Shown: piece after piece, positions 9,901 through 63,630 of the stretch
Layout of the letters: every line of letters begins with the position of its first letter
How positions within the stretch are numbered: the first letter of the stretch is position 1
DNA from: Prosthecobacter sp.
GTDB lineage: Bacteria; Verrucomicrobiota; Verrucomicrobiia; Verrucomicrobiales; Verrucomicrobiaceae
NCBI RefSeq assembly: GCF_034366625.1
Contig: NZ_JAXMIH010000014.1
Location: 62,001-126,000 of the forward strand
DNA length: 64,000 bases
Direction: 5' to 3'
Made by a program: the position numbers and the translations under genes
Notes under the pieces: model-generated
Told to the model about the DNA's origin: nothing
What the model saw: only the letters and a program-made list of their open reading frames with translations
The model's database searches: none

Positions 9901-12900
9901 CGAGGGTGCCGGGTGTGGAACCAGCGCCGTCGTTGATGGCTCCGTTCAGGAGCACGGTGCCGCTGGACACATTGAGCAGCGGGGTGCCGGTCAGATTGGT
10001 GGCACCGTTGATTTCAAGAGTGTAGCTGCCCGAGGTGGTGGTGAGGGTCGAACTGCCGATGGTGAGATCCTTGAAGGCCAGATGCTTGTTGGTGCCGCCC
10101 AGACCTGTGTTGCGATCAATGGTGAGGGTCGAGCCGCCATTGACGATGAGGCTGTTGCCCGTGGCATTGCTGCCGATCCAGAAGCGCTGACGGGTGGTGT
10201 CGTTGGCACCAGCACCGACATCCATGCGGATGTTGGTCGTGCCGCTGTAGAGGGTGAGAGCGCCGTCGCCGATGCCACCATTGACCCGAGTCGTCGTGGC
10301 ACCGATCACACTGGTGTTGGCCATGCTGTTCGGGTTGCCGCTGGCAAAGGTGTTCAGTGTGGCGGGGTCGTAGAAGGCCAGCGTCACCGTCCCGGTCTGG
10401 GCTGTGGAGGCGGCGCTGATGGTGAAGGTGGTGGCGGTAATGCCACCTGTGATGGTGGCACCTGAAGGGATGCCCGCGCCGGAAACCAACATGCCAACGG
10501 TGAGGCCGGTGGTGTCTGCAACCGTGATGGTCGTTGTCGCCCCGACCGTCGCGCCGGTCATTGGCACGCCGGTGCTGGTGCCGCGGATGTTCAGGGTGCC
10601 CTGGACGACCTGGATGCCGCCGGAGTTGGTGTTCAGCAGGCCGGTGTTGATGTTGTTCAAATCAAGGGTTGCTCCCCCGGTTTTGATCAGAGTAGCTGCA
10701 CCGGTTGTTTGTCCGTCGATCCTCAAGGTTACACCGTTCGAAGTGTTGATGAAGGCGTTGCCAGCAGGGCCCAGATTCAGTCCACCGGACACTACCAAGC
10801 TCATGTTATTCGCGAAGCCTGCATTCAGCGTCTGTCCTTGTTCGCCGGGTGCGCCGCCGAAGGTGATGCCGCCGTTCATGACAAAGGTCTGGCCCGTGGC
10901 CGTAACAGAGGTTCGATCGGTCGAGAGCGTCGCGATGTGGTTGCCTTCCGCAATCATGAGGCCGGTGTTGAAGGCCGAGGTGCCGAGGACGGCGGCGATT
11001 TGTCCGACACCAGAGAGCGTTGCCGGAGCACCACTGAGGGTGAAAGTGGTGGCGCTGGTGATCTGGGCGATGGTCAGGCCGTTCACGCCTGGTCCATAGA
11101 GAGGCATGCCAGGAACAAGACCTGCGGTGCTCGCGACCGTGACCGTACTGTTCGTGCCATTGGCGGTCACTGAACTTGCGACCAAGTTCACGGTGGCACC
11201 GACGTTGGAGGTGAAGGCGTTGTTTGTATTCGTGCCCTGGGTGACTGTGGCGAGCACCGGCGCGCCAGCGGCGTTTACGAGCCCCACGTTCAGAGTGGCT
11301 ATCGAACCGATGAAGGTGCCGACTGGAATGCCGTTGCCGGAAATCGGCATACCCACAGCGAGACCGGTGGCAGAGGCGACCGCGATGGTCGCGCTGCCTG
11401 AAGTGCTGGTGAAGACACCGTTGACCCGGCCGACGTTGTCGGAGCGGAAGCCGAGCTGGGTGAATGCGTTGTTCAGCACCACAAGACCGCCCAAGCCCGT
11501 CGTCATGTCCCCCAAAGTTGCCACGCCACCGAGGTTGGGCTGGGCAAGCGTATTTTCACGGAAGAAGATGCCGCCTTGATTGATGATGTAGTTGCCGTTG
11601 AAGGTGTTCTGACGGGCGTCAATGAACAGGTTACCACCACCATGTTTCAGGACGTTGCTGGCATTGATGAGCTGGCCGGTGGTGGAAGGGCGGGCAAGAT
11701 CACCGACGACCAGGTTGTTGTTGTTGTAGATCACCGCTTCCGCCTCACCGCTGCCGGCCAGGCCAAATTCAATGCCCGGATGGATGGTGCGAGCACCGTT
11801 GATGATGAGGCCGCCGCTGCGGATGCGGATACGGTCCGTGGCTGCCGCCGTTCCGGAGGCAAAAGTCATGTCGCCGGTTTCCAGACGCAGGGCGTAGGTG
11901 TCGAGGGCCAATCCAGCTCCGCCGATCATGGAGGAAGCGGCGTTGATGATCGTGCGCTCATTCGGAACACTGGTAGCGCCGAGAGCACCGCCGCGAATGC
12001 CGTCAAAGCCGGCGCTCACGAAGCCGTTTTCAGCCGTGTAGGTGAGGAACTGGGCATTGCCATCGACAGTCTGCGGATTCATGATCCAAGGTGCCACCAT
12101 GCCGTTGAAGATGGTGACGGGACCACCGGTGACACCTGGAATGCTGAAGGTGGGCAGGGAAGCCACACCACCGACGAGCTTCACGCGCTCATCAGTGCCG
12201 AGCTGGAGAGCCGTGATGGGGTTGATCTGGAGCGTGGCGTTGTTCCCGGCGATGCTGAGACCGCCGACTGAATTGTCAGTGGTGCGCGTGAGATCGGTGC
12301 CGCCACCGCCACCGAGGACCAACGTCACGGTGCGGTTGAGGTAGTCACGCTGAACGACAAGCTGACCAAAGCCCTCGAGAACCACGTCACCGACGGTTTC
12401 GGTGACTTCGACGTCACGATTGCCCTGAAGGCGGATGGTGGCGTTGTCGAGCGTGATGGCAGCGTCATTCATCCAACGACCCTGGCCGCCATAGCCTTCC
12501 ATTTTGCTGGTGGCCAGCAAGCCGGTGGAGTAGTCGAAGCGCAGTTCGGAACCGGCGAGGAGGGTGACTGGGGCGATGTTGGCCGTCTGTCCGACGTTGA
12601 CGAACGTGCCGCCGAGACCGCCGGCGACCAGGATGCCGTAGTTGTCGAAGGCGCTGGTGGCCAGCGTGCCACGGAACTCCAGCGTGCTGCCACGGTTCAC
12701 CACGGTGGTACCGGCGTAGTTGTTGTTGGTCATCAGCACCACGGTGCCACGACCGTTGCCACCGGTGATGTTGTCCACGTTCAAGCCGCTGTCGATCATG
12801 CCGACGATGAGGTTGGTGTTGCCGCCCAAACCATTGGTCAGCACATTGCTGAACGCCATGTCACTGGAGACGTAGAGTGTGCTGCCACCTGCGCCGAGGC

Positions 12901-15900
12901 GGTAGGTGTTGCCTGCGCCTGCGCCCAAGGTGGCGGCGTTGTAGCTGCCGACCTGACCGACTGCATTGCTTGTAGATCCGAGGAAGGCGGTGCCGTCACC
13001 GATCCTGGCGAGGTCGATGGCCTGGGTATAGACGGTGTTCAGGGCGATGATGGAGGAACCAGCGTTCTTGCCGCCGCCATTGAGGCCGTTGCCGCCAGCC
13101 AGACCAAAGTAGGTCGCATCCTGCGGACCACCGAGGTTGCCAATGAGGAGGTTGAAGGCGGAGAGCGGCGCATCAGCGGCCATGCGGAGGATGCCGTAGT
13201 TGCCCATGGCGTTGCTGCGCAGATCGACGCTGCCAGCGCCGGTGGCAATGTTGCCGGTGCTGTTGAACTGGATGGCCTGTCCCGGCTGGATGAGCGCGTT
13301 GCCCGTGCCGTAGTTGGCGGTGTTGCTCAGAGTGATGACGTTGCCTTCAAAGGTGCCGAAGAAGGTGGTGCCGCCCTGGTTGACGTAGCCGCCGGCGAAG
13401 GTGGCTGTGTTGTCACTGTTGATGAACAGGCTGCCACCGGCCTTGAGGAGCGTGCCGTTGCCGCTGATGTTGCCAAGGATGGTGGTGTTGGCGTTGGGGA
13501 TGAACTCCGCATCCTTGATCATGGTCAGGTTGTTGAACTCAAAGCTGTAGCCGTTGGCGGAGTTTAGCGTCAGCACGGGCGAGCCCAGCGGACCGCCGAA
13601 CGCGAGGTTGCCGAGCTTGATGGTCTTGTTGTTGCCGCCATTGATGGTGCGGGCGTCGATGGCGACCGCACCGCTGCCGATGTAGCTACCGCTGCCGATG
13701 CCCGCTGTGGAACCAATCGTCAGATTGTTGTTCTGGAAGGTGGTGAGCACCTGCATGACCGAGGTGTTGTCGCCGTCGTGGCGGATATTGAGGTTCGCGC
13801 CATTGAGGGTGATCGGAGCGGAAGCGCCGAGCGGATTGGAAGCGCCATTGGAGAGACGGACTTCGGTGGTGCCCGCCATGAGTTTCCAAGCACCCACATC
13901 GTTCGCACCTGCGCCCGTGTCACCGTTCGTGAGGAACAGGTTGCTGGCACCGGTCTTGACCAAGGTCTTGCCAGCGGCGGAAATCTTGCCGCTGATCACA
14001 CCTTGGTTGAGGGTGTTGAGGAAGGTTTCACCCGTGGCATTGACAAGCAACGTGCCATTGATCTGGACATTGGTGTTCTGACCACCAGTCCAAGTAAGAG
14101 CATTGGCATTAAGGGTGACGTTATTGATCAGATTCCAGGCCACTGGAGCCGCGCCGGTGGCGAGGGCGGAGGTGGTGTTGGCGTAGGTCGCGCCATTGCC
14201 GAAGCTGTTGTACTGATCAATGGTGACGTTGTAGCCGCTGCCGGAGCCGAACTGGATGGTGGGGATGCCGTCGGTGAGCTCACCTGCGGCGTAACCGTTG
14301 CCAGCGATGGCGGCGAGATCGAGGATACCGCCCTTGAGAGTGACGGGACCGGTGCCGAGGGCGAGCGTGTTGCGCACCGCGAGGGTGCCGGTGCTGACCG
14401 GAGCGATGGCGTTAGCGCTGGTGACGCGGCCCGCATTGACGGTGGTGCCGCCCGTGTAGGTGTTGGCCAGAGGCGCGCCGTCCTTGTTGAGCGGCTGGTT
14501 CAGGGTCAGTGTGCCGTTGCCCGTCTTGGTCAGGCTGAGATTGCCATTGAGTGTGCCGGTGTAGGTGGTGGCCTGGCCGATGCCCGTGTTGACAGTCAGG
14601 GTGGAGGAGGAGCCGCTGTTCATCACACTGCCATAACCGGAAAGGCCGCCGATGGTGATGTTCTGGCCATTGAGGTCAAAGCTATTGGAACTGTTGACCA
14701 CAAGGTTGATCAGGCCGCCTTGGGGGACGCTGCTCTGGCCGGCAAACTTCACCGTACCTTCCTGAATGGTCATGTTGCGCAGGCCGCCTGCCGCCGTGTT
14801 GAGCGGCACCATAAGATTGTTCGTGCCGGAGATCAGGAGAGTGCCCGCACCGGCTTTGGTGAAGTCGGTGGCTTCAAAGTTGCCGGAGAGGGTGGCGTCA
14901 CCGGTCTGACCACCGCTGACCCAGACGAGGGCTTCCTGCGCGGTGGCACCCGTGCCAAAGCGGAGGTTGCTGCTGATGTTGGCGGCCGTCGTGCCGTTCA
15001 TGATGAGACCACCACTGGCAAGGCGAAGGAGCGAAGAGCCATCGAACGCCGTGACATTGGCGCTGGTGCGGAGAGCGAGGATGTCGATGGTGCCTGCGGC
15101 TACCTGCTGAGTGGTGGCGAAATCTCCCAAGGACGTCGCGGCGGATACGGTCAGATCCGTAGCAAGCGTGGCATTGTTCAGCAGGAAGCCGTTGGTCACG
15201 TCGTAGCGCAGGAAGTTGAGATCCTGACCGGTGGAGTCACGGCCCACGATGGAGGGCAGGGTGAGGATGCCGCTCGCATTGGTTGGCACGGTGCCGCCGA
15301 CCTTGAAGAACTCGTTGGCTCCGAGATCCGTGGTCAGGTTCGATGAGATGACCGTCAACATGCCGTTGGTGCCACGGCTCAGCGTGCCGGTGGAGGTCAA
15401 GGTGGTGGTCGTGGGCGAGGTGCCCTTGATCAGTTGCACGTTGCCAGCGTTGTAAGTCATGGAAGCCACTGTGAGGGCTTGGTTCACCACGCCGAAGGTC
15501 AGCGGAGTCGCCGCGCCGACGATGACGGTGGACGGGGCGCTGAGTGTCACTGTGGTGCCGTTCACATTGGTGACGACTGCGCCAGCAGGGATGTTGGTGC
15601 CGGTGACCGTCATGCCGGGCACAATGCCGACGGCGCTGCTGACAGTGACATTGTATCCCGTCGTTGCTTGGACGCCCGTAACTCCCACGGGGGCCGTGCC
15701 AAGGGTGCCCTGAAGCTGCAGGGTGCCGTTGGTGAGGGTGATCGCGCCCGTGCCGAACGGCGTGCCGCTGGTCATCTGAGTCATCACCGTGCCGCCGCCA
15801 CCATTGAAGTTGCCGATGGTGAGGCTGGTGTTGGCGTTCGTGGTGGAGTTGAGCACCAAGGTGCCGCCGCCGATCTTCGTCAGGCCGAAGGCTCCGGTGA

Positions 15901-18900
15901 TGGGCAGAGCCTGACCGAAGGTGAAGCCGCTGGATACTTCAATCGTGCTGGCCGCCGTCTGGATGAACTGGTGGGAAGTGGTGAACGAACCACCGACGGA
16001 GAGCATGCCGCCGCGCAGACGCACATCCGTGGCCAGGCCTGCGACCAAGTGCGCACCACCAGTTCCAACAGCGATCGGAGCGGTATCACCAAGATTGACA
16101 TCTCTGGTCACCCGCAGGACACCAGCGTCAATGAACCAGGAGGTGCCGTAGTTAGTGTTGGCCACGTCCTTGTTGTAGGCACCGTTGGTGCCGGTGATGA
16201 CCAAGACACCAGCACCGACTGAGGCACCGCTGTTGACGAGCAAGTTCGTACCCAAGGCTCCGCTGGAGATCAGGTTGGCATCGAACTGGATCACCCCCTG
16301 GGTTGTTCTGATGATGAAGTTGCGGTTTTGCAGCGTGGCGGCGCTGTTGAGATCCCAGGCACCAGCAGTTCCTGCATTAATGGTGTTGTTGAAGGTCAGG
16401 TTACCGCGGCCTTCAAAGGTGATCGGCAAGACGCCTGCAGCAGCGATGGTGCCGAGCGCGTTTGGTATGACGCGGTTGGCTCCATCCGAGCCGATGAAGG
16501 TGCCGGTCAGGGCGGTGGCGGCTCCGGTACCGCTGCCGAATGTCAGCGTGCCAGTGCCAAACGGACCGCTGATGATCGTGAGGGCATTGGAACCTCCCGT
16601 GTAGAGAGAATCGGCACCCACGACGACGCGGGCGTTCTGCAGGGCCGTATTGCCCTGATAAGTGTTGGACGAGTAACCGTTGGCGTCCGCGCCGAAGTAC
16701 ACCACACCCGCGCGGGTCACGGTAATATTGCCGGTTTCACCCACGAGGATGTTGTGCGCGGCACCATTGCTGGTAATCGGGCCGAGCAACTCCAGGCGAC
16801 CGGTGTTGATGGCCTGAAGCATCGTCGTGCGACCGGAACCGGCGGAAACGATTCCGATACCGCCAGTGACCTTCGAGGTGTAAAGGCTGTTGCCAAAGAT
16901 ACTGACCAAGTGGTTGTCAGTTGGGATCTGGACGATGATGTCACGTCCGAAGGTCACCTGACCGCTGAGGCCAAGACCGACGATGTTTGCCGAGTCATCA
17001 GCCACGTTGATGAGCAGCGGGGTGTCACTGATGCCCAAGGCACCTGCGGTGTTTGGCAACACATCGGTACCAACCAGGATGCCGGCGAAGGTCGATCCCG
17101 TCGAAGGCAGCGTGCCCGTGGCCGAGATGGTGGTGGTGCCGGTGTAGGTGTTCAGGCCATTCAGCACCAAGGGCTGGTTGCCGGACTTGACCAGGTTGCT
17201 GCCGACACCGCTGAGGATGCCGTTGATGCCGAAGGCCGAGGGCTGGCCGCCGATGCCGATTTCAAAGACATGGGTGCCGGCCACGCCGCCTGGAGCGAGA
17301 TTCACGTTGCCACGGAGGACGAGGTCGCCATTGCCCTGCCAGCGCAGGTCGGCCGCGATGTCCACGTTATTGCCTGGGCTGACCGCGCCGTTGAAGGTCT
17401 GAAGAGCACCGCCACCGCCGCCGGCCACGCTGCCGGAGAGGCTGCCGCCGGTCCCGGTCGAGTGATTGACCACGAGCTTGCCGGTGCCGAGGGCGAAGGA
17501 GTTGCCGATGTTGAGCACCGAGTTGCGGTTGGAGGAGATGTCGCCGGTGAAGTTCTGGCGGGTGTTCAGGGTGATGTTGGTGTTGCCGTTGATCAGCGCC
17601 GCGTCGGCGTTGGCGTTGCCGCTGGCCGCGCCGATCTGGACGCTGTTGGCACCCGTCAGCACGTTTTCGAAGGCGTTGAAGCCAATCCACAGCGTGCCCT
17701 GATTGCCGCCGCCGCCGAGGCGATAAACGCCGTCGGTGGAAGCACCGAGAGTCGGGGCGAAATAGAGCTGATTGTTCACACCGCTCATCATGGAGCCGAG
17801 CCAGAGCCGCTCCACTGCTCCACCCTGGTTGAGGGCGGTTTCCATCGCGCCCATGTCGAGAGCGCCGTACTGCCAGGAGTTGTCGAGCGAGATGACACCG
17901 AGGTTGGAGCCCGTGGTGGTCAACTGGACCACGCCATTGGCTGCCGCACCTGTGGTGAGGCGTGCCAGGATGCCGGCCTGTGTCAGCGCGACGCCGTTGT
18001 TGTTGTAACCGAAGGACACACCGGAGAGCGCCCAATCATCACTTGCGGCCATGACTTTCTGGCCGGCGATATTGAGCGCATCAGCCAGACGGATCTGCGT
18101 GCCGGGCAGCAGGTTGATGTCGCCCACGCCAAAGGGGGTTCCCGCACCCAGCACCGTGGTGCCGATGAGGCTGGAAGCAGTGTTCTGGGTGGAGGCCCAG
18201 ACTTCGAGGCCGATGGAAGCGGCGGTGCCGAAGGTGTTGGTGGCGTTGTTGAAGAACAGGCCGCCGTTGCCGACTTTGATGAGCTTGCCGCTGGCACCGC
18301 CGACGACCTGACCTTCAAGGATGGTCTGGTTGGCCGCTCCGAAGCTGGAACCAATGATGTTACTGTTGGCTCCGAGGGTGGTGGTGCCGGTGACAGTGAT
18401 GCCGTTCTGCACAAAGTTCAGGTAGATGGGCGAGTTGGCCCCCAGATCAGCAAAGGTGAGATTGTTGATCCGCTGCATCCAACCCTGGTTGTTGTTGGTG
18501 ATCGTGGAATCGGCGTTGACGGTGACATTGCTGCCAATGTTGCCGGTGAGGCGGATGCCGCTGGCGATGTTTGAGTCACGTCCGGCGTCGTTGGAAAGCA
18601 GGCTGTCGATGATGAGCGTGCCGCCGTTCATGACGATGTTTTGACTGTTGGTCGTGCTGGCGATGGCGGTGCCGGAGTTCGAGACCGGGTTCTGGAGGAA
18701 CAGATTGCCTTCGTTGAGGGTGATGGTGCCAGTCAGGAACGGGTTGCTCGAGGTCAGCGACAATTGGTTCGGGCCGAACTTGGTCAGGCCATTGCTGCCG
18801 GTGATCTGGGCGTTGATCTGGGAGGTGCCGACGCCGACGTAGATGACCGCTTCGTTGGCACCGAAGGCCAAAGTCATCGGCAGGGTGACCGGCGACACCG

Positions 18901-21900
18901 TGGCAGCCGCCGCCTGGACCGGGTTGATGATCGGCGGGGTGGTGGTGTTGCCGGTCAGAAGCAAACCGCCACCGATGTTACCCGCACCGCTGTCGAAGGT
19001 GATGGTATTGAAGCTGGCCGTCGGGCTGATGTTGAAGCCGCTGCGCAGAGCATAGACTGTGGAATTGGCCGACAAGGTGGCTGCCGCACGCACATCCAAG
19101 GTGGTACCAGCACCAAGCGCGGCGATCGCACCACCAGTGCTGACTGAGCTGTAACCCAACTGACCGGTGCCCAAGGTGGCGGAGCCAGGGGCAATCAGGG
19201 TTTGGAAGCCTGTCGTAGCCGCCGTCGGATTGTATCCCACATAGGAGTTGCTGGTCCGGTCCACGATCCACACAGGGGCAATGCCGCCGTTGACCACGGT
19301 GGCTCCATTGCTGGTCGTGCCTGCGCGGGTTACGCCAGCCGTTACGAGCAAGCGGTCAAACGAGGTGGCCGGAATGCCCGCCGTGATCACGCCCGAACCA
19401 ACGACCGCTGCGGCGCTGATCGTAAGGCTGGTCGCGCTGGCGATGGCCGTGATGGTGGCACTGGCAGGGATGCCGGCACCGGAGATCGGCTGGCCAATGA
19501 ACATCCCGGCAGTGGAGGCCACGGTGACCGTCGTGCTGGCCGTCGTGGTGCCGATGCTTTGATTGAAGTTTGGAATGCCGAGCGTGCCTGCGGCGGATGT
19601 GGCAAGACCGAGGGTGCCATTGGAACCGCGAGTCAGAGCTGCGGTTTCAAGAGTGGCGGAGCCTGCGCCGCCCACGCGAACCACGGTGGCGGTAGAACCT
19701 TTGTTCACCCCGAGCGCGCCCACGAGTTCATAGGACTGTTCGTTGGCAATGCCATCGAAACGGAGTTGACCGCCATTGAGATCCTGTCCGGTGGCATCTG
19801 CCCAACTGCCCTGGCCGTCAGCCACGGAACCGAGCTGGTCAAAGATTTGGACCAAGCTGCCCGGACGCATGAGGATGAGGTTGTTGTTGGCGTTGGTGAC
19901 GGAGTTGTAGAAAGATGCACTGTTCAGACCGCCAGGAACACCGGTGCGGAGGGTTCCGAACACTTCCACTGTGCCGCTGCCCAAGGGGGTGGCACCCGAC
20001 GCCCCGGTGTCGATGATGACCTGGGAACCCCTGTTGATGGTGGTGCCGCCGGAGTAGTCGTTGGAATTGCGAATGATGACCGTGCCGCTGCCTGCCGTGG
20101 TGCCGGCGATGTTGCCGAGTGGTGATCCGATGACGACACGAGCCGTGCCAGCGCCACTGGCGGAGCCGAGGACGTTGTCCGAGCCGACGAAGGCGAAGTT
20201 CGGGCCGGTGTTGGCACCAAGGCGGTAAACTCCCACACCGGCGGAGATGCTAGTGCCGCCCGCAGTGGCGGGTGCGGAGATGACGATGCTTGTATTCGCA
20301 GCGATGCTGAGAATGGTCGCACCCGCTGGAATGCCGGTCCCAGATACCTGCTGTCCGACCACCAAGCCCGTGGTGTTCGCGACCGCAATCGTTGCGCTGC
20401 TCGCGGTGACCGTTACTCCCGAACTGATGGTGATCGTAGAGTCGGGGGCGCCTGCAACGAGGGTCGGGGCGAGGTATTGGATTTCGGTCGCACCGTAGCC
20501 ACCGAGGAAGAGCCTGCCATTTCCGATGCTGGCCATGTTGAGGGCTGAGTTGAACTCAGGCACGGCCAGTTGCAGGACTGCACCAAATCCGCCATTCAGC
20601 TTGGCAGAGTTCAGGCCGGTGCCGGGGTTGTAGTCGGTGTCGAGGACAATGGCGGGCAGGCTGCTGATGTTGCTGTTCAGATTCAGGCCGCTGATGCCAC
20701 CAATGCTGCCATTGCCAGCAATGCGGAGAACCCCGCCGGGATTGACATTGACCAGACCGGCGCCGAGGGGCGTGCCTGAGGTGCCGGTGACCTGGACAGC
20801 ACCCGCGTGGATATTCACACCGCCCGTGAAGGTGTTGGCAGTGCCCGAGATGCGGAGTGTGCCGTAGCCGGTGGTGCCCTGGCCGAATTTGTTGAGGTCA
20901 GCCGCGCCGCTGACAACACCAGCCAGCTCCAGGAAGGTGGCGCCAGCTGTGGCTGTGTTCACATTGGCATAACCGCCGTTGAGGGTGGTCGTGCCAGCCG
21001 CCTTGAGCGAGTAGCTGTTGCCGCCCGTGAGGGAGAGGGTGTTGTTGGCGATGGACAGGTTGCCGATCTGGATCTGGTTGCCCGTGTTGGCTCCAACACG
21101 ATCCACGTTGATGGTGGCCGTGCCGGTGACGGCGACGTTAAGGCCGTTTGGTGTTCCTGCGGACTGGCCATAGATGATGGTGCCGTTCGGGCCGCCACCG
21201 TTGCTGTTGAGAGCGAGGATACCGCCGTTGAGGGTCACGGTGCCGGGGGTGGAACCGTTGGCACCGCCGAGACCAAGCGGGTCTTGAACGGTCAACTGGC
21301 CTTGATTGATGATCACGCCACCAGTGAAGCTGTTCTGGTTCGCATAAGTGTTGTTGGCCGTGATATTGCCGAGAATCAGGGTGTTGATGCCGTTCTTGAT
21401 CAGGCCGGTGGTCTTGTTGCCGCCATTGATGGCATCGACGATGTTGCCGAGGAAGGTGGTGTTGGTCAGGCCGCTGATGGTCAGCGTGCCGTTCGCGGCG
21501 GTGGAGGCGTTGCCCACAATGCCTGCCGTGCCGGCCAGACTTGCAAAGGTGACATTGCCGCCGTTGACGTTGAGTTTGGCGGTGTCGTTAAGCACGAGGG
21601 CGGTGGTCAGCTTGGTGGAAGCGGAGGAATTACCCAGAGTCAGGGTGCCATTGTTCACCGTGAGAGCACCATAGATGCCGTTGCTGCCGGAGAGGATCAA
21701 TTCGCCCGCACCGGTCTTGGTGATCGTCCTGGCGGAAATGCCGCCGCTGATCGTGGCGGCGACGCCTGCATTGCCACTGACGTAAATGATGCCTTCGCTC
21801 GCACCGGTGGTGGCCGGGTTGACGGCGAGGGTGAGCCCGCTGGCGGTGGCGGTGGCGGCGACGCTGATGGTGATGGTCGTGCCGCTGGCGATGGTGGCGA

Positions 21901-24900: not shown

Positions 24901-27900
24901 TGCCAAAGCTGACGACCCCGTTCAAGGTCAGGCTCTGCGCCGACGTGCCGAAGGTGAGCTGGGTGTTGGCCGTGATGTTGTTGGCAATGGTGCGGGTGGC
25001 ACCACCGGCGAGGATCTTGGCTCCGTCGGTGATGGTCAGCGCGCCTGTGCCGATCGGGCCGGCCGTCACCGTGGCTCCCAAGGCGGTCGGCGTGCTGTCC
25101 ACACCGAAGATGATCGAACCTGCCGTCAGGGCGACACCACCGGTGAAGGTGCTGGCACCCGTGAGGATGAGGGAACCATTGCCAGTCTTGCTGATGGAAC
25201 CACCCGCACCGGTGTTGATGCCGCTGAGGATGAGGCCGTCTGGCGACAGACCGCTGACGTTGATCGTGCGGGCTGCAGCACCGAGGTTGAGGATGCTGGC
25301 GATGGTAGGCGTGGTGCTGAAGCTGTCATTCACCGAGGTGATGCTGCCGGTGATCGTGAGAGCGGTACCACCGGTGATTGTCGGGGTGAGCGCACCGCCG
25401 GTGTTGTTGAAGGTGATGTTGCCCGCGACGGTATTTGCACCTGTGTAAGTAAGTGTGCTGCCACCATTCAGGATGATGTTGGCGCTATTATGAATAGTTC
25501 CAGCCACCGTCTGTGTGACCGCCGCGTTGTTAATGATGAGGGTGCCGTTCGGGATGGAAACCGTGGTGGTGCCGTTCGCGCTGGCGGTGCTCAAGGTAAG
25601 GGTGCCCGCATCGACATAAGTGTTTGCCGCGCCACCACCGTAGCTGTTATTGCCGGTCAGGACAAGGCCGCCCGCACCGCTCTTGACCAATGCAACGCCA
25701 GCACCAATGATTGGCGTGGCGATGGTGTTGACGCCCGCGCCGGTGTTGGTGTGGATGAAGAGCTCAGAGCCACCGCTGGTCAGGCCTGTGCCGCCGGAAA
25801 TGGTCAGGGCATTGGCACCCGAGTTGATGAGCAAGCCGCCGGTGCCCAAAGTCAGCGTGCCGCTCACAGTCAAGGTCGTCGCGGCAGCGGCAGCGACGGT
25901 TAGGGAGTTGAAGGTAGGGCTGGCCGCCGAGGTCGCCGTGGCGAACACTCTGATGTTGTTGGCTGCCACGCCGTTGGTGAAGTTATTGGTCGAATATGCC
26001 GGATAACCCGACATGCCGAGCGCGCCAACACCGCCAGATGTGCCGCTCGGGGCAATGTAGCTCGCGAAGTCAGTGCCGTTCACCGTGGCCCAACCGCCGA
26101 GGATGCCGTCGTCCAAGGTGATGGCCGCAGTATTGACTTGTGTGAGAATGACCTGGCTGTTGTTGGTGCCGCCAAGGCCGAGATTATTGCCGGTGAAGTT
26201 GATGGTTGTGCCCGCCGTGGAGCGGATCAGATCCGCTATGGTCAGCGTGGACGGAGTGACCGTGCCGGTGGCAGGAGTCACCGTAATCGTGTTGGCACCG
26301 CCCAGTCCCGCGCCACCGTTGAGGGTGATGGCACCAACCGTGGCACCACTCTGCACGCCAATGTAGGTGAGCGTGCCTCCCTGCATGGTGATCGGTGTCG
26401 CGCCGACGCGGTTGGAGACAACGTAAAGACCACTGTCGTTGAGGGTCAATCCACCAAAGTAGTTGGTGATGCTGGTTGTGCCGGAGAGCTGTCCTTGATC
26501 CTGCAGGGCCAGCACGCCGTTTCGGACTGAGGTCACGCCGCTAAAGGTATTGTTGCTGGTGAGGGTGGTCGTGCTGTTGCCGGAACGGGTGTAGTTCAGA
26601 TTGCCGGTGATGCTGCCGCCAAAGGTCGTGGAACCCGCGTCAGCCACGGTCAAGGTCGCCGCCGTGCCGCTGCTATTAGTGACGATGCCGGCGGAACCTG
26701 GCAGCGAAGTGGTGCTGTCGATGCGGGAAACCACCTGATTCTTGCCGTTGAGATCAAGGGTGCCTCCTCCATTGACGCGGACGGTCTGAAGCGTCGGAAT
26801 CGCGTTGGTTGGAATCACCGTGAGGGTATTGTCCACGCCGCTGTTCAGGGTGAGCAGACCGTTGTTGATGGTGGTCTGGCTGCTGTTGGTGAAGAACTGC
26901 TGCTTGTCGATGCTCATGGCACCCGCACCGGTCTTGATGAAACCGTTGCTACCAAGGACTTGAGCGTTGAAGTTCAGGGTGTTCACCGTGTCGAGCTGGT
27001 GGATGATCATCTGATTGCCGCCGGACTGGATGAGACCACCGGTGAAGTCGGCGCCGCTGGCGTCGAGGACTAGGATGCCGCCGCTACCGATGTTCAGGAT
27101 GGCCTCATCGCCGATGGCGTTCAGTGCGGTGGCACCGGAGAAGGTGAGGCTGTTCGTGGTTACCGAGCCGTAGAGCTGGGTGCTGTTGAGTGCGACGTTG
27201 GATGCCGTGGAAACGGCGCGGAACAGGCCGGGGGCCAGTTCGGTGGACGCGAGCGGACGGACACCACCAATGGCGGAGTAGGTGGCGAAGGCGATGCCGT
27301 TGCCAGTGGCGCTGGTATCCGCGATGATGTCAGGACGAATGCTGATGGTGTTGCTGCCATCGCCAGTGGCACCGCCAAGTAAGTTCACAACCGCAGGGGC
27401 GAAGAGATTGGCGACACCGGCACCGGGAGCGGCACCGAGGTTGTCACCGCGAATCAGCAAGGCACCACCACCCGACAAGGCGGCTAGATTTCCTGCACTC
27501 AGGATCAAGGACTGGGATGCATTCGCATCCAAAGTGATGATCGAGGAGCCAGACTGAACGCCAATCGCCCCAACGGTGCCGAGGTTCAAGGTTTCCACGG
27601 TGGCTGCACCCGCATTGCCGATGATTTTGAACTCGCCGCCCTGCATGGTGATGTTGCGCACCAAGCCGGAGCCGATGGCGAAGTTGGTGCCACCGAGGCG
27701 GTCGTTGAGATTTGCACCGCTGTTGTCGAGGATGAGCGTGCCGCCCTCAGGGAGGGTATAGGTCTGGAATTTCGTGCTGCCTGCTGCACCGCTGAGAACT
27801 GAGGTGCCTTGAGAGGTGGTGAAGGTGCCGATGCCCATGGTGCCCGTGCCCGCCGCGCTGTCGATGGTCATGGTGCCCGTGCCGATCTTGTTCAGGTTGA

Positions 27901-30900
27901 AGCTGGTGCTGGTCTGATTGGCGGAGCCGAAGCGGCCGGAGAATGTGAAGGTGCTGTTGTCGAAACCGGTAGCCAAGGTCGCGCCAGTGCCCGAGTTGTT
28001 GGTGACCAATCCAGTGCCAGTGATGGAGCCGGTGACGACGTTGATACCCGCGATGTCCAGGGTGCCTCCCGTGGCGAGGTTGACGTTGGAGAAGCGAGAC
28101 AGACCGTTCGTGTTACCAGGGCGGAGGGTGCCATTGTTGACCTGGGTGATCCCGGTGTAATCGTTGGCGATGTTACCGAGGGAAAGGATGCCGGGGCCCT
28201 CCTTGGTGAGGTTGAAGGCACCGGTGTATTTCGCGCCGAGGGTGCCGATGACGGCAGGGCTTTCGACATTCACGATCGGGGTGCCGCCGCTGAACGTCAC
28301 GAGGCCGTTGAGAGCCAGATTGTTGCCGGAGATGCCATTGAAAGTGAGTGTGTTGCTCGGATTGGAGACGGTGACGGGATTGTAGATCGTGGTGGCCACA
28401 CCGGTGATTTTCACGCCGTCATTAGGGATGCTCAACGTCCCCAAGCCGAGAGGACCGGCAGCAACGACCCCAAAGTTAAACTGGTCGCTGGCACCCACAA
28501 TCAGGAGGCCCTGATTAAGGGTGATGCCACCAGCGAAGGTGCTGTTGTTCGAGGAGAGTGAGAGCGCACCGGCACCTTCCTTAATGAGCGAACCGTTCTG
28601 GATGATGCCGGAGATGACGAGCGAGTTGAGCGATAAGCCGCTGGTGGTGATGGTCTTGGAACCGCCGCCCAAATTCAGAGCGCTACTGATGGTCGGAGTG
28701 GTGCCGAAGGCATCGTTCACCGCGACAATCGGACTGGCGTTGCTCAGATTGACGACGCCCGGGACGGTGAGGGTGTTGGTGCCGTTGGTAGTGGCCGGGG
28801 CGGAGAGGGTGATCGTGGTGCCATTCACGATGGAAGCGATCGTCGAGCCAGCTTGAATGCCCGTGCCCGTGATGGGTTGACCCACGGCGAGACCCGCAGA
28901 GGCAGCGACCGTGACGGTGCTGCTGCCGATCACGGTGACCGCTCCGGCCAGCGAGAAGCCAGTAGCTGCGAGGGTCGGTCCGGCTGTGCCGCCCTGGTTG
29001 TTGAGGGTGATGGTGCCTGCCACGGTATTGTTGGCTCCGAAGTAAGTCAGAGAACCGCCGCCGTTGATGATGATGTTGTTGTTGGCACCGATCTGGCCGG
29101 CATTCAGCGTCATCGTGACTGCCGCATTGTTGATGGTCAGCGTGTTGCCGCCGACGGCACCCGGATTCGGGATCGTGACAATACCCACACCGCCGTTGAG
29201 GCTGAGGGCGGAGTTGACGACGGTGTCGCCCGTGTAGGTGTTCGGGGCCGTAAAGGCCGTCGTGCCTGCTCCCGCGACGACCACGCGAGTCTGGCCGACG
29301 CCGTTGTCGATGATGCGGGAGTTCACAGTCAGGGTGTTCTGGTTGTTCATGAGGAACAACTCACTGATCCCCGCAGCCGTGCCGCCTGCGGTCAGACGAC
29401 CGCTGTCGGCCGCTGCACCGATGGTGTTGTCATTGGCACCGCTCTTGATCAAACCACCGGAGACAAGGTTCAACGTGTTGGTGGCTGTGGCGAAGGTCAG
29501 ATTGATGTTACCCACCATGTTCAAGCTGTTCAATGTGTCTGCGGCACCAACGGCACCCGTGGCGATGAGGCGAATATTTTGGGTGGGATTGTTACCGGCG
29601 GTGATGGTCGTGCCGGTGTAGCCCGCGTAACCCGCGTTATTCAGCGGGCCGACGCCCTTGCCAGCAGTCCAGGAGGCAAACTCAGTGCCATTGGTGACGG
29701 CCCAGCCGCCAAGAATATTGTTGGTCAGGGCAGGGGTGCCTCCATTGAGGCTGGTCAAAAGGATCTGCGAGCTGCCGATGTCCGCAAAGCCGAGGTTGGT
29801 GCCGGTAAAGTTCACACGGGAACCACTGCCAGCGGTGCGAAGCAAGTCTGTGATGGTCAAGACCGAGCGACCCGTATTGCCGGGGTTTGCGCTGATGGTG
29901 CTGTTACCACCCAGCACGGTGATGGTGCCAAGCGTTTCGGTGACGGTCTGGCCCTGCACACCGTTCAAGGTGATGGTGCCGCCGCGCGTGCTGATGGCGT
30001 TGGCGTCGGCAATGCGATTGCCCGAGATGGCGAGGTTGCCGTTGTCCATGTTCAACGTGCCAAACTCCAGATTTAATCCGGCGGTGCTGGCAAGTGTGCC
30101 GCTGTCACGCAGTTGCAGGGTGCCGCCGCGGACGTTGGTGGCTCCGGTGTAGGTCTGTGCGCTGGTGAGCAGGGTCGTGTTGTTGCCGGAACGGGTGAAG
30201 GCGAGGCTGCCGCCGATCACGCCGCCGAAGTTGCCGCCGCCGGTCGAGGTCAGGGTTGCCGCCGAGCTACTGGTGATGAGGCCGCCGGTGCCGGGGAGCA
30301 GGTTGTTGTTCGAGATCGTCGAGAAGGCCTGGTTCTGCCCGTTAAGATCGACCGTGCCAGCGTTGGCGACCAGTCCAATCGTGGTCACGGCGGCAGCGGT
30401 GGGAGCCACGAGGATCGTATTGGCCGCTCCACTGTTGAGCGTGATGGTGCCCTCGTTGTTCGTGATCGAACCGGTGAAATACTGGGAGACATTGAACGAG
30501 AGATTGCCCGCGCCGTCCTTGGTAATGCCAGCGCCGGAGATGTAGCTGCCAACCGCAAGGTCACCGAGCGCGTGGATGAACAGCGAACTGCCACCCGTTG
30601 CCACCTGACCACCGGTGAAGCCCAAGTTGCCCGTCTTGGCAAGGATGCCGATTGAGCCGGGTGCCAGGATGCTGCCTGTGTTGAAGCCCGTGAGTCCACC
30701 GCCGGCATTCAGGGTGATGGTGGCCACCGTGTTCGTGGTGAAGGTTTCGTTGCTGCTCAAGCTCAGGTTCGCCGTGGTGGTGAACATGTTGTTGATGCTG
30801 CCGAGCGTCTCATTCGCCGCGAGCAACCGGAAACCCGATCCCGCAGCGTAGGTGAGGAAGCCGGCGCCGGTGCCAGTGGCCGAAGTGTCGCCAATCATGT

Positions 30901-33900
30901 CCGGGCGGGTGCTGATGTTGGCGAGACCGGCGATGGCATTGCCGCCGGACAAACCAAGAGCTCCACTGGCAAGTATAGTGGCTACGCCAGCACCGGGCGT
31001 GGAGCCGAGCGAGTCGCCGCGGACCAAGTAGGTGGAGCCGGTGCTGAGGCCATGCACGCTGGCGAAGTTCAGAACCGTGGATCCGGCTCCGGGCACGAGG
31101 GTGATGACGCCGCCACCGCTTGGCGCGGTCAAGGCGCCCACGGACTCGGAGGAACCGCCCGCCGCACCCAGGATTTTCAACTCACCACCGGCCAGAGTCA
31201 CCCCCTTGAGCAGGCCACCGAGGCGGTTGTTCGTGTTCGTGGTGGTGTTGTCGAGGATGAGGGAGCCGGTCTGGTTGATCACGTTGCTGGTGAAGGCCGT
31301 CTGCGCATTGCCTGAGTAGGTAACCGCGCCACCCTGGATGGTCTGGGTACCAGTGGAGGTGCTAACACCGCCGGTGAGGCCGAAGGAACCGGAGCCGATC
31401 TTCTGCACATTCAGGGTGGCCAGGACGCTGTCGTTGTAACCGAGGAAGCGGCCATCGAAGCTGGTGGCGGCATTGTTAAGACCAAAAGTCAGCGTGCGGC
31501 CCGTGCCGGAGTTGTTCGTGATGTCGCCACCGCCGCTCAACTGACTGAGGATCTGGTCAACATTGTTCAGGTCAAGACGAGTGCCGGCAACCATCGAATA
31601 GGTGGACGCATACGGAATGGTGTTGGTGGCACCGAGGAAGATCGTGCCTGCACTGAGGGTGGTGGCACCCGTGTAGTAATTGACACCGTCAAGACGGAGA
31701 CCGCCATTACCCAGCTTGGTGATGCCGCCGGTGGTGCCAATCATGGTCGGCATGGCCAAGGCCAGCGGTGCATTGGCCGTGCTCGTGGCGGTGATGTTGT
31801 GGTTGGTCGCTCCGATGTCGATCTTCCCGCTGGTGCTAACGGTGAAAATCGGAGTGACGTTTGATGTGCCGATGGTGGAACTGATGTTTCCGGTGAGGGT
31901 CAGCGTGCTGCCGAAGGTGACGGCGGTATTCGTGGCGGCTCCGGTTGCTGGCTGGGAGAGTTGAACCGTTGTGCCAGACAAAATGGCGGCAATCGTGGTG
32001 CCAGCAGGGATGTTGGTGCCGGTGACAGGCATGCCGACGGCCAAACCATTTGTAGAGTTAGCTCCACTCAGCGTAAGGGTGGAGTTATTGGTCGCCGTGG
32101 TGGAGTTGCCACCGGTAACGCTGGCCGTGCGGACGGTCGCGGCGGCATTGGCGCTGGTGGAATCAAAGGTGAAGTCACCAAAGCTGGAGTTGCCCCAGAG
32201 GTTCAATACGCCACCACCATTGATGGCGATGTTCGCACCCGTAGCGATCTTGCCGCTCTGGCCGGTGGCATAGACGAGGAGGGCGTTGTTGATCGTGATG
32301 CCGCCGGTGGCGGGGAGGACGGCCTGGGCGTTGGTGCCGGAGAGCGTGGTCGTCGTGTTGATCACCGTGCCTCCCGTGTGACTGTTCAGACCATTAGTCA
32401 CAATGAACGCACCCGCGCCACTGAGAACCAATCGAGTGGCTCCACCACCGGCGTTGTTCACAATGCGAGAGTTCACCGTCAAAGTGTTCGCCATGTTGGT
32501 GAGGAACAGTTCTTTGGTGCCCGCGCCGACACCGGCGCTCAGACGTCCGCTGTCCACCGTGGCACCGATGTTTCCGTCGAAAGCACCCGATTTCAAGAAG
32601 CCGCCTGAGGTCAGGTTCAAGGTGTCCGTGCCGGTCGTGAAATTGATGCTCTGAGCGGCTGTGTTGGTGAAGAAGTTCAGGGAGTTCAATGAATAGACAC
32701 CGGCCGTGGCGGGAACGGAGAAGCTGTTGTTCGTCACCCTAATATTCTGCGCCGCGTTGCCTGGAGCGGCAGGGAATGCCGAGCCCGAATATCCCGGGAA
32801 ACCCGTCTGATTCAGGATGCCTACACCCGTGCCTGGGAGGTAGCTGGCAAATTCGTTGCCGTTAGCGATAGCCCAGCCGCCGATGATGTTGTTCGTGAGT
32901 GTGGGTGCAGTATCGAACTTGATCTCGGCGTTGCCTGCGTTGAGTGAGATACCCAAGTTGGTGCCGGTGAAATTCACGATGGAATCTGTATTCCGGGTGA
33001 GGCTGTCAAAGGTCAGCAGCGCCGAACCGCCGGAACCAACCGAGGAGTTGATGGTCGAGAAACCACCATTCACGGTCAGTGCACCTAGATTCTGAACTGA
33101 ATCAATACCGTTGCCACCGAAGTAGTTGAAGGCACCGGCCTGGAGCGTGACGGGAACCTCGCCCAGGCGGGTAAGACCAACAAGGCCGCGGTTGTCAACG
33201 TTGAAGGTGCTGCCGGTCAGAACTTCCACCGAGGTGGTGTTGGCGAAGGTGCCACTGTCGATCAGGGTGGTGGTGCCGCCGCGCAGGCTGGTGGTGCCAG
33301 TGAAGGTGTTGGCGTTGGTGAAGATGGCGGTGTTGTTGCCGGACTTGACCAAGTTGATGTTGCCATTGATCGAACCGCCGAAGCCCGCGCCATTGACTGC
33401 GGTCGTGGTGCCGCCTGCGACGGTGAAGAGGGCGGCGATGCCACTGGTGTTGGTGATCGTGCCGCCGGTGCCAGCGAGGTTGCTGGCGCTGCCAAGGATG
33501 GCGACGGCCTGATTGTTGCCGTTGAGATCCACCGTGCCGGAGTTGACCTGGAGGTTGTTGGTGCCACCGATGGCGTTCACAAACAGGGTGTTGGCACCGC
33601 CATTGAGAGTCAGCGTGCCGTTGTTCACTGTTGTCACACCGGTGTAGAATTGGGGCCGGTTGAGGGTCAGCGTACCTGCCCCGGCCTTTGTCACGCCCGC
33701 TGTGCCTGTGATGCCGGCGGAGAAATTGAGATTGCCGTTGGTGTGGATGAAACCAGGAACGGCCGCCAGCGCAATCAGGCCGCCGCTGATTCCTGAATTA
33801 CCCGCCTGCGCGATGATGCCGCCGCTGGTGAGGGTCAATATCGTGTTCTGCGGAATCGGCCCCGCAGCCTGCGTGCCGCCAAACTGATTCAGAGTCAGGC

Positions 33901-36900
33901 TGTTGATCGTGGTGGCGGCAATATACGCACCCCCGTGAGTATAGCCCATTCCCACGTTGGTGGTGGCACCGGAACTGAGGAATGGAGCGAGTTCCGCAGC
34001 GGTGAGCGCGCGGAAGCCGGGGCCGCCGGCGGTATTAACGCCAGCAGCACCGACGTAGGTGGCGAAGGATGTGCCGGCACCGGTCAAGGAAGTATCCACG
34101 AGGATGTCAGGCCGGATTGACATGGTCGTCGTACCAACCGCTCCGTTAGCACCGACTTGGACAGGCGCTGTTCCAGTCAGTGTGAAGTTGGCCACGCCAG
34201 CGCCCGCTGTCGATCCGAGGTTCGGGCCACGCAGCAAGAGGGTGGAACCGCCGACCACCCCGCCCATGACGCCCGCGTTCAGGACAGTACCCTGAGTGCT
34301 GGTTGGCGAGAGATTGATGACGCTGGCACCAGAAGCCATGGTGACCAGACCGCCCTGAACCGTCAGGGCTGAAGCGGCCGGAACAGTGGCGGCCACACTG
34401 AGAGTGAGCGTGTTGGTGGCCTGATTGATGGCGGTGATGGTCGTGTTTGCCGCGAAACCGGGACCCGAGATACCCATGCCGACGACGAGATTGTCAACGT
34501 TGGTGACAAGCAGCGTGGTTGATGCTGAGGAAGCGACACCAGATGTCTTTGGAATGACGATGCCCAGCGACTCAGTCGTTGGGGCTGCGGAGTTGCCGAG
34601 AATCGTGAGCGTGCCGCCGTTCAAGGTGAGGCCGACGCTGTCGGTGGCGGTGTCCACCTGGCCGCCGAGGCGGCTGTTGACGTTGGTGCCGGAGTTGTCG
34701 AGGACGAGGGTGCCGCCGTCGAGGACGTTGTTGGTGGCGAAGAGGCTGTTGGCCGTGCCACTATAAGTCAGAGTTCCCTGCCCCGCGATGAGGATGCCGG
34801 TGGAGGTGCTCGTTCCGCTAAGGGTGAGGTTGCCGGTGCCGATCTTCGTCACGTTCAGGGTATTCGGAGCCGCCGCACTGAAGCGGGCGAAGGAACCGTC
34901 GAAGGTGGAGTTGGTGTTGTCATAACCGACGAGCAGGGCACCGGCGGTGCTGGAGGCATTGGTGACCACACCGGTGCCGGTGAGGGAACCGAAGAGGGCG
35001 CTGGCACCGTTCAAGTTCAGGTAAGAAGTGGCGCTGGCGAGGTCGAGTCGGGAGTTGCGTGCACCGGCGAAGGCTCCCGCCGGGTTGGCGACAATGGCGA
35101 TGGTGCCCGCGCTGACGGTGGTATTGCCGGTGTAGGGGTTCTGAGCCTGGAGACCGAGGACGCCCGCGCCGGTCTTGGTGAGACCTGCGGTGCCGAGCAT
35201 GGCGGCCTGGATGTCCACGGAAGGCAGGAGGGCGGAAACATCCTGGCCATTCCAGAGGGTGGACGCGACGTTGAAGGTCCGATTGCTGGCCCCGAGATCG
35301 ACCCGACCGGCGATACGGGCGATGGCTCCGGGGTTGCTGGAGGTGACGTTGACGTTGCCGTTCAAGAACAAGGTGCCGCCAAAGTCGGCTCCATTGGGCA
35401 CCACGTCGCCCTGGAAGGAACTGATGAGCGCGCCCTGATTCCCGCCGTTATTATTAATGTTGAGGCCAGCCAGGGTGTTGTTGCCCGCGAGGAGGAGGAA
35501 GCCGGGGCCGTTGACCGTGACGATGTTGGCCGGATCAATCTGGCCGCCGTTCACTTCCATGGTGATGCGGGCGTCCACACCATTGATCCCACCGTTGATG
35601 ACGACGCCGTTGGTGGAGTAAGGAATGGTGACCACACCGACACCGCCATTCAGGCGCAGGTTGCCCTGATTCACAATCGTGCCGCCGGTGTAGGTATTCG
35701 CAGCGGTCAGAGCGAGGGCGGAGGCGCCAGATTTCACGAGCGACACAGTGCCGGTGCCAGCTCCGGTGGCGAGGGCGTCGGAGGTATCAACGATGACCGA
35801 GTTGATGGTGATCGTGTTTTGATTGTTGAAGGTGATCAGCTCGGTGTTGCCGGAGAGGGCGGTGCCGCCGGCGGTGAGGATACCGCGGTTGGCGGCGGTG
35901 CCGAAGTTGACCGCGCCGTTTTCATTGCTCTTCAGAATGCCGCCCAAGGCGAGGTTGAGGAAATCCGGGCCACCCGTGGTGGTGCCGTTGGTGAAGGTGT
36001 AATTGAGGGTTGCCGTTCCGGTGGAGCGCAGACTGCCGATGGTGGTGTCCGCCGCAAGGGTGACGCTGGCGCTGTTCGTGGAGATGTTGGTGGGCAGATT
36101 GTTACCGCTGGCGAGCCCCGCGGCATAGGTCGGGAAGCCAGCTTGACCGATGGCACCGACGCCCAGATCGACCGAGTAGGCGGCATAATCATGTGAGTTG
36201 ATGATCGCCCAGGGTCCGAGAGCGGCGGTGTTGGCCTGGCCGGTGATGAGGATGCGCGGGAAACTACCCAAAGTGCCGAGGCTGGTGCCGGCGAAGTTCA
36301 AGGTGGCTCCGGCGGTGCGGCTGAGGCTGGTGAGGGTGAGTTCGGCGGAGTTGATGCCGGTGCCGCCGATGGTGAGGGCGATGGTGGAGGCGCCTTCGGC
36401 GGCAGTGACCGCGCCGAGGGTTTCGGTCGAGGCCGTCTGGGCGCGTCCGATGTAGTTCAGCGTGGCACCACGCAGGTCAATGGCCGCTGCATTGTTGATG
36501 CGGTCATCGTGATTGATCGTGCCGACGTTGTTGTCCAGCGTGAGGATGCTGTAGTTGATGTCGAGATTGGTGGTGCCGGAGAAACGGGCGGAATCGCGCA
36601 TCAAAGTGGTGCCGGCGGCGATGAGGATGTCACCGGTGGTGTTGCTGTCGGAGAACATCGACAGCGCGACGTTCGCCCCCGTCTTCTGGAAGGCGGCGGA
36701 ACCGGTGATGGTCCCGGCAAAGTTTCGGGCAGCGTCCAAGTTCTGGACAAAGGTGGAACCAGCGGAGCCGGTGATCGTTCCACCGGCGTTGGCGACACCA
36801 GCATCGGTGAAGAGGCGGGAAGTCTGGGCGTTGCCATTGAGGTCGAGGGTGCCTCCAGCGCTCAGGTGCAGGAAATTATTGAAGAAAAGCGTGTTGTTGC

Positions 36901-40213: not shown

Positions 40214-40285
40214 TATCCCCGACAGGAATCGAACCTGTATTTAGAGTTTAGGAAACCCTCGTTCTATCCATTGAACTACGGGGAC
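40214..40285 (-). tRNA. tRNA-Arg (anticodon CCU)
   Basis: A full 72-nt cloverleaf is visible on the minus strand. The acceptor GTCCCCG pairs with CGGGGAT (one G-U pair), with A as discriminator. The D stem is GTTC/GAAC. The anticodon stem AGGGT/ACTCT encloses TTCCTAA with CCT at positions 34-36. The variable loop is short and the T arm is ACAGG-TTCGATT-CCTGT. CCA is not encoded (CTG follows). It reads AGG codons. A weak candidate promoter lies upstream (TTGAAA near 40333-40328 and TAGAAA near 40312-40307, spacing only 15 nt). Confidence 0.95.
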
Positions 40286-59557: not shown

Positions 59558-60061
59558 CTAGATCCTGCACGCAATCCACGCATCAACAGTGAACAGCGGA
59601 GTAGGGCGCAAACTGACACATGCGGCAAAGCGGTGGTTTCCATCTAAAATGTGATAACCAAGCGAATCCTCAAGGAGGACCAATGGTGTATGCAGCCGTC
59701 CTGTGCTTTTTATGAACTGCCGAGAGCGCAGAAAACTCTCACGACCTTTTCCATTTTTAATCTTCGTTACTGGTGTGGGACGGCCATGAACATACGATAA
59801 AATGATCCAGTTTATGATCTGTTGTGAGTTTGGATGAAGGCGGCTGCCAAGCAGAGGGATTTGCTGGCTGTGCCAGACGAGATTGCTAATTGTTTGGATC
59901 GAATTGCCGCCAAAATATTGGAACCAATTCCTGTTGCTGTGTAGTGAATGGATTGACTCAAACGGCCATCCGTTGCTTTCAATCAGCGGTCGAATCCAAA
60001 TGTTAAATACATCCTCGGGCATTTTTGGAAGCATTCCTTTAGCTTTCTCCAAGAGATTCAT
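59558..60061 (-). CDS. Small 'DGNHR' protein (ParB/Srx-like core, hypothetical)
   Basis: Encodes 167 aa. The C-terminal half has PVTKIKNGKGRESFLRSRQF and then LVLLEDSLGYHILDGNHRFA. The DGNHRxAA motif after a beta strand is the hallmark of ParB/sulfiredoxin-like domains, where it binds nucleotide. The N-terminal half (helical, Trp/Asn-rich, IWIRPLIESNGWPFESIHSL) is not recognised. An AGAGGG Shine-Dalgarno-like stretch precedes the ATG. It lies 26 nt downstream of the WD40 kinase and shares its low GC, so the two probably form one transcript and moved together. Function unknown; the ParB-like assignment rests on one motif. Confidence 0.72.
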   Translation of the reverse strand: MNLLEKAKGMLPKMPEDVFNIWIRPLIESNGWPFESIHSLHSNRNWFQYFGGNSIQTISNLVWHSQQIPLLGSRLHPNSQQIINWIILSYVHGRPTPVTKIKNGKGRESFLRSRQFIKSTGRLHTPLVLLEDSLGYHILDGNHRFAACVSLRPTPLFTVDAWIACRI

Positions 60062-60087
60062 GAACCCTCTGTAGCAGTGCGTAATAT

Positions 60088-63615: not shown

Positions 63616-63630
63616 GGAGGCCGGATGCGG

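Follow-up and report, generated by a model that had tools for sequence, protein, structure and literature searches.

We analysed a window of 64,000 nucleotides from Prosthecobacter sp. (contig NZ_JAXMIH010000014.1, positions 62,001 to 126,000; "the window" below always means this whole stretch). It contains a giant gene on the minus strand (3911..39781), called as an open reading frame (ORF) of 11,956 amino acids (aa) with no internal stop along its full length. The gene encodes a surface protein with PATR beta-strand repeats, which hosts ten copies of a module of about 60 aa, here called the cassette. The NCBIfam model TIGR02601 (PATR-type beta-strand repeats) matched the giant protein around the cassettes, a PEP-CTERM sorting signal was found at its C-terminus (3926..3997, minus strand; TIGR02595, E 4.3e-5), and its N-terminus looked by eye like a signal peptide. 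We consider it roughly 75% probable that the cassette is a promiscuous all-beta domain, compact at about 60 residues and of the same type as the decoration protein of Arthrobacter phage Bridgette, and that it is inserted in the beta-solenoid of the giant secreted protein and shared by phages and bacteria.

All ten cassettes lie on the minus strand within this single ORF. Profile matches, reported as the core plus three residues on each side, placed them at 34340..34540 (cassette 1), 31898..32104 (cassette 2), 28745..28942 (cassette 3), 21806..22003 (cassette 4), 20219..20416 (cassette 5), 19358..19555 (cassette 6), 15479..15676 (cassette 7), 11219..11413 (cassette 8), 10973..11170 (cassette 9) and 10358..10555 (cassette 10). 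A preliminary description of the window, made from its letters alone, had listed about ten such modules as scattered through the giant gene, unlike PATR strands and located at different points of different super-repeats. Each of the ten positions that it listed indeed holds a cassette. The cassettes occupy several unrelated insertion points and not one fixed position, but the copies at 11.2 and 11.0 kb are a tandem pair (cassettes 8 and 9), and cassettes 2 and 3 sit at nearly the same super-repeat point, about 9 residues apart.

The cassette family in the giant gene

The ten window cassettes served as seed for a profile that was then refined by iteration on 23 giant ORFs; the consensus of the resulting hidden Markov model (HMM) is TSGSTTVTVASTAGLVVGQAVSGTGIPAGTTITAINSGTTITLSQAATATGTNTLLTFGA. 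In the giant gene, the iterated profile matched exactly ten cassettes, with E-values from 1.5e-9 to 1.7e-18 at Z=1000. Because the profile had been trained on the same ten cassettes that it recovered, we took a search with a single cassette as an independent check. This query found itself and seven of the nine other cassettes (E 1.3e-8 to 6.4e-4). A chance motif as origin of the cassettes was excluded by the single-cassette and profile searches.

We compared the mean pairwise amino acid identity of the cassettes with that of their 60-aa flanks and of random 60-aa pieces of the same gene, using 44-45 pairs for each. The identity was 0.422 for the cassettes, in contrast to 0.251 for the left flanks, 0.242 for the right flanks and 0.240 for the random pieces. 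The same comparison in four other giant genes gave 0.317-0.383 for the cassettes versus 0.229-0.278 for the flanks. The cassettes thus constitute a distinct family whose members resemble each other more closely than their host repeats do.

Five cassettes were searched against Pfam (E up to 10), without a match except for one sub-threshold DUF2938, and three against NCBIfam (E up to 1), without any match. Within the same scope, neither of the PATR models (PF12951 and TIGR02601) matched a cassette, in agreement with the contrast to PATR strands drawn in the preliminary description, and the Pfam search of five cassettes gave no Ig-like domain either.

Predicted fold and hosts in phages and flagella

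The structural model of cassette 4 alone (90 rows) had a predicted local distance difference test (pLDDT) score of 82.3 and a predicted template modelling (pTM) score of 0.66. The ten-cassette profile found one clear relative of solved structure, the Bridgette decoration protein (8eci_1; E 5.9e-7, profile positions 1-57 to chain positions 16-74), and the 90-row profile matched the same chain with an E-value of 4.1e-5. In the structure search with the cassette 4 model, 8eci_1 ranked first in Foldseek (probability 1.00, E 8.1e-3) and had a VIA Z-score of 8.4 with a root-mean-square deviation (rmsd) of 1.8 over 64 residues. Weaker structural matches of the isolated domain (Z 6.1-6.7) were obtained with a phage tail tube protein and with the LKA1 tailspike insertion domain and the P22 coat I-domain, for which the tool warns that a Z-score under 8 may reflect only a common arrangement. 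Among the 412 matches in BFVD, three reached an E-value of 0.001, the best of which was a Bordetella phage tail collar protein (3.3e-4); virion structural, HK97 capsid and P22 gp10-like proteins followed lower in the list (E 0.005-0.12). Matches to F1-ATPase beta and V-ATPase were weak (E ≥0.22; Z up to 4.6) and were not used.

Cassette 3 was also modelled with its flanks, as a segment of 267 residues (pLDDT 76.3, pTM 0.76). With an autotransporter passenger, the alignment covered the whole segment (Z 12.7), but with 8eci_1 it covered only residues 88-156 of the model (Z 9.0, rmsd 1.6). The cassette is therefore predicted to be a separate domain set into a beta-solenoid.

The domain also occurs in phage proteins, as the preliminary description had stated and as the matches in virion proteins bear out. 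Several of the PHROGs families matching the cassette were virion structural proteins (best E 1.1e-5), and tblastn yielded 11 phage records, including tail fibres and structural proteins. In IMG/VR, at least 137 stretches encode the domain; 80 of these were kept, many of them with one similar ORF of about 600 aa. The largest number of cassettes in any viral ORF examined was 16, in an IMG/VR ORF of at least 1,730 aa with tail-protein matches (L147:961-6150). In L107, the protein that hosts the insertion is a head-closure protein (phrog_578, E 2.4e-111). The head-closure homologs in MW202483.1 (82% identical) and in two further phages are without the cassette; L113 has two. In a scan of nine proteins, the other hosts were DUF4815/phrog_358, phrog_3287 (two), phrog_376 and a Bradyrhizobium Collar-domain protein, and two proteins gave no match.

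On the bacterial side, adjoining genes for FlgK (PF22638, PF06429) and FlgL (PF00669) on a Verrucomicrobia contig (QQND01000043.1; L078:1438-4734) both carry the cassette. Five other bacterial host proteins were scanned, of which three had Lcl_C, PA14 or PATR matches and two had no match. The FlgL found a match in 19 of the 194 phylum genomes, and in 12 of these 19 the match came in two pieces that omit the cassette part: the first stops at query residue 146-158, the second starts at 219-236, and -3 to 78 target bases separate them. Hence, these 12 genomes have a FlgL without cassette. For FlgK, 13 of the 15 genomes with a match had separate N- and C-terminal pieces, one had the N-terminal piece only and one the cassette part only; the middle of this protein was too variable to call empty sites.

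Arrays, empty sites and turnover among giant genes

In the source genome (6.6 Mb), a single-cassette query gave 26 matches, all inside three giant frames of 11,959, 10,491 and 8,918 residues. A second long PEP-CTERM-like frame of at least 2,005 aa, free of cassettes, adjoins the 8,918-aa gene (L011, contig C6). The genome search that the preliminary description had proposed, with an HMM of the copies, yielded 495 matches in 22 of the 23 giant ORFs from 15 genomes of the same genus. Of neighbouring pairs among these matches, 31 overlapped by more than 10 aa, and 476 matches were left after such overlaps had been dropped. A single giant protein contained up to 63 matches, some of them overlapping. 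The cassette was carried by 37 of the 56 genomes searched, comprising the own genome and its relatives, and by 31 of 288 genomes sampled from the phylum, again with the own genome included. A 2.3-Mb genome of the same class holds an open frame of 17,232 residues with many cassettes (G151, contig C2, about 8-50 kb).

More than half of the matches (273 of 495) were located at most 25 aa from another match and thus form tandem arrays. Some array members were more than 90% identical in DNA, the highest identity being found among units of 46-aa spacing in G012. Tandem duplication is therefore the only amplification route for which there is direct evidence.

Homologous cassette-free subjects were called empty sites if they had at most 12 extra and at most 20 missing residues near the junction; among them are paralogous super-repeats within the gene that carries the cassette. 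For 479 of the 495 matches an alignment spanned the junction of the joined flanks, and 189 had a homologous empty site, with a flank identity of up to 79% in amino acids. The 89 events with at least 50% identity had a median inserted length of 67 aa (interquartile range 64-70, range 51-80). In the window, three paralogous super-repeats of the giant protein (aa 3985-4160, 2810-2970 and 619-785) lack cassette 1, and alignment of paralogous super-repeats revealed, at 25334..25366 (minus strand), an empty site to which both cassette 2 and cassette 3 map. Clean empty sites in paralogous super-repeats and orthologs, together with an identity above that of the host repeats, support the earlier suggestion of a domain-sized, in-frame unit.

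Orthologous genes were compared in two families. The C8-type family comprised nine genes with 118 arrays, of which 100 were testable in at least three other genes, and the window-type family comprised six genes with 47 arrays, of which 24 were testable. In total, five arrays were filled in one gene and empty in every testable ortholog. Four of these were C8-type arrays, at 3764 in G000_C8, 7460 in G004 and 3975 in G010 (each empty in 8 of 8 others) and at 3174 in G015 (empty in 7 of 7 testable others, with one untestable). The fifth is window cassette 5, which was empty in four of four testable orthologs, with one further ortholog untestable. The window-type calls were 69 filled, 65 empty, 94 undecided and 7 other.

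Apparent losses were seen as well. A two-cassette array present in seven of the nine C8-type genes was missing in G027_C78 and G015, which reads as loss; in G027_C78, the DNA identity on the two sides of the gap was 91% (over 43 nt) and 98% (over 108 nt). Where a cassette was missing in G027_C55 (aa 3540-3700; L033-L034), the DNA identity to the ortholog fell from about 90% to about 70%, and other super-repeats matched this stretch equally well, a hint of possible recombination or conversion between super-repeats. Taken together, tandem duplication plus in-frame gain and loss of cassettes is supported.

Several observations weigh against the reading of the cassette as a promiscuous insertion domain shared by phages and bacteria. 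Most determined positions in the C8-type family were shared (636 calls filled, 111 empty, 186 undecided and 11 other), so that much of the cassette pattern was inherited, and internal repeats may have misled some of the filled and empty calls. Turn-forming residues were not enriched at the insertion sites (0.551 versus a background of 0.539, standard deviation (sd) 0.015). The model of cassette 3 in its context drew on 7 rows, and its five runs included three with a pLDDT of 56-61. A wider fold family beyond 8eci_1 is tentative, as all other structural matches of the cassette model had Z-scores under 7. Finally, a tree of 90 rows (10 from the window, 48 bacterial and 32 phage, of which 15 from L147) showed 14 changes between phages and bacteria versus 26.6 in shuffled data, and placing the phage rows in one clade gave a p-value of 0.394 in the approximately unbiased (AU) test, which does not reject such a clade; the tree thus neither shows nor rejects repeated exchange between phages and bacteria.

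The many shared C8-type positions would also fit a history in which most cassettes are ancestral and were repeatedly lost rather than gained, and so would the two-cassette array that is missing in G027_C78 between the flanks described above. We regard such a history as unlikely, because four of the one-gene arrays, empty in seven or eight testable orthologs, would each have to be explained by seven or eight precise losses or by losses along most of the branches. Moreover, the three head-closure homologs compared and 12 of the 19 FlgL matches are without the cassette.

The preliminary description had further proposed that the cassette could be a spreading element and had suggested a search for target-site duplications. 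Many sites, empty sites and five presences in single lineages are consistent with an in-frame mobile DNA element that copies into coding sequence by an intein-, insertion-sequence- or group-II-like logic. The tests at the DNA level gave this idea no support, and we consider it very unlikely. The longest direct repeats across the 89 junctions averaged 5.12 bp versus 5.17 bp (sd 0.09) in shuffled pairing, at junctions that are old and have approximate ends, so that eroded duplications would be missed; three of the 89 junctions reached a direct repeat of 8 bp. Fixed DNA ends of the cassettes were inspected by eye only, in alignments. Codon sharing at identical residues was 0.416 among the window cassettes versus 0.429 expected from codon usage. 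In four other genes, it was 0.428, 0.358, 0.343 and 0.331 versus expected values of 0.408, 0.330, 0.342 and 0.311, respectively (excess 0.001-0.028). The three clear excesses recur in one or both flanks within the respective genes and are therefore not peculiar to the cassettes. Near-identical dispersed copies were not found: 58 pairs had at least 0.60 amino acid identity and unrelated flanks, and the 40 listed among them reached at most 0.73 identity in amino acids and 0.73 in DNA. A local DNA comparison gave 84% over 167 nt in one pair, 480 aa apart within the array region of one gene, and higher DNA identity of cassettes was observed between orthologs and among members of the same array. 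In addition, a cassette of about 60 aa is too short to encode its own enzyme. These sequence comparisons do not support mobility of the cassette at the DNA level; we see no sign of a currently jumping DNA element and propose no dedicated mobility machinery.

Ordinary PATR divergence would make the cassette an aberrant rung of the solenoid that multiplied along with its super-repeat. This reading could draw on the repeat-rich setting in the same gene and on the shared super-repeat position of cassettes 2 and 3, but is highly improbable, given that the average similarity among cassette flanks is at the level of random pieces, that hosts of the domain include non-PATR proteins (phage head closure, FlgK, FlgL and tail proteins), and that the model predicts a separate domain.

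Elsewhere in the window, a tRNA gene lies just upstream of the giant gene (40214-40285, minus strand), and in the region 60000-64000 the GC content drops from about 0.60 to 0.51 over a minus-strand ORF of 1,175 aa (60088-63615).

Interpretation and comparison with known systems

If the cassette is a promiscuous insertion domain, it would project from the side of the beta-solenoid. New copies would be gained by rare in-frame recombination, either illegitimate or guided by short homology, and since an exposed loop could accommodate a small self-folding barrel while the host fold stays intact, insertions would tend to be kept. Local multiplication by tandem duplication would then be followed by divergence, and in-frame deletions or recombination among super-repeats would remove cassettes. 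Wherever the annotation of a host is informative, it points to a virion, flagellar-junction or surface-type protein, so that the likely role of the domain is surface decoration or display, that is, binding, spacing or shielding at the outside of an assembly. A broader scenario, which we regard as rather doubtful, is that the domain circulates in-frame, at the level of protein-coding sequence only, among phage virions, flagella and giant adhesins. Phages would then be the vehicle by which it entered the surface proteins of Verrucomicrobiota, where it would have been amplified to dozens of copies per protein with turnover on the timescale of species.

Phage and surface proteins are already known to carry insertion domains. 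To our knowledge, the amplification of this cassette in giant proteins and its presence in both FlgK and FlgL have not been described. A literature search, covering listings with the first part of abstracts, found no description of the cassette, which is no proof of its absence from print. What appeared to be an oddity of one giant gene has become a countable domain family for which we found no Pfam or NCBIfam model, with many pairs of insertion and empty site within one genus. Through these pairs, the question of how domains enter proteins becomes measurable. Furthermore, one shared unit links phage capsid decoration, flagellar junction proteins and giant adhesins.

Several known systems resemble the cassette in part. 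The PATR repeat (TIGR02601/PF12951) occurs in the same host protein and forms the solenoid that flanks the cassettes, but its models match none of the cassettes tested. Promiscuous Ig-like domains of phage virion proteins are small all-beta domains inserted in many unrelated surface proteins. The cassette works likewise as a small all-beta insertion, yet none of the five copies searched has an Ig-like match in Pfam. Also comparable are the insertion domains of the LKA1 gp49 tailspike (residues 283-370; the cassette model matches residues 291-372 of 4ru4, Z 6.7) and of the P22 coat protein (the I-domain; residues 231-347, Z 6.1). A paper on LKA1 gp49 (PMC5701251) reports that a barrel of six strands interrupts a beta-helix there, and points out its similarity to the P22 domain and to a V-type ATPase. 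Like these insertion domains, the cassette is inserted within hosts that close up without it, namely giant proteins, head-closure proteins and FlgL. LKA1 gp49 and the P22 I-domain were absent from the cassette sequence searches at E up to 1, and common ancestry with them is not shown. The nearest relative of solved structure is the Bridgette decoration protein (8eci chain 1), which resembles the cassette over the whole domain in sequence and also in fold. In Bridgette, however, it is a separate capsid protein of 126 aa, whereas the cassette is a repeated insertion in a giant bacterial surface protein.

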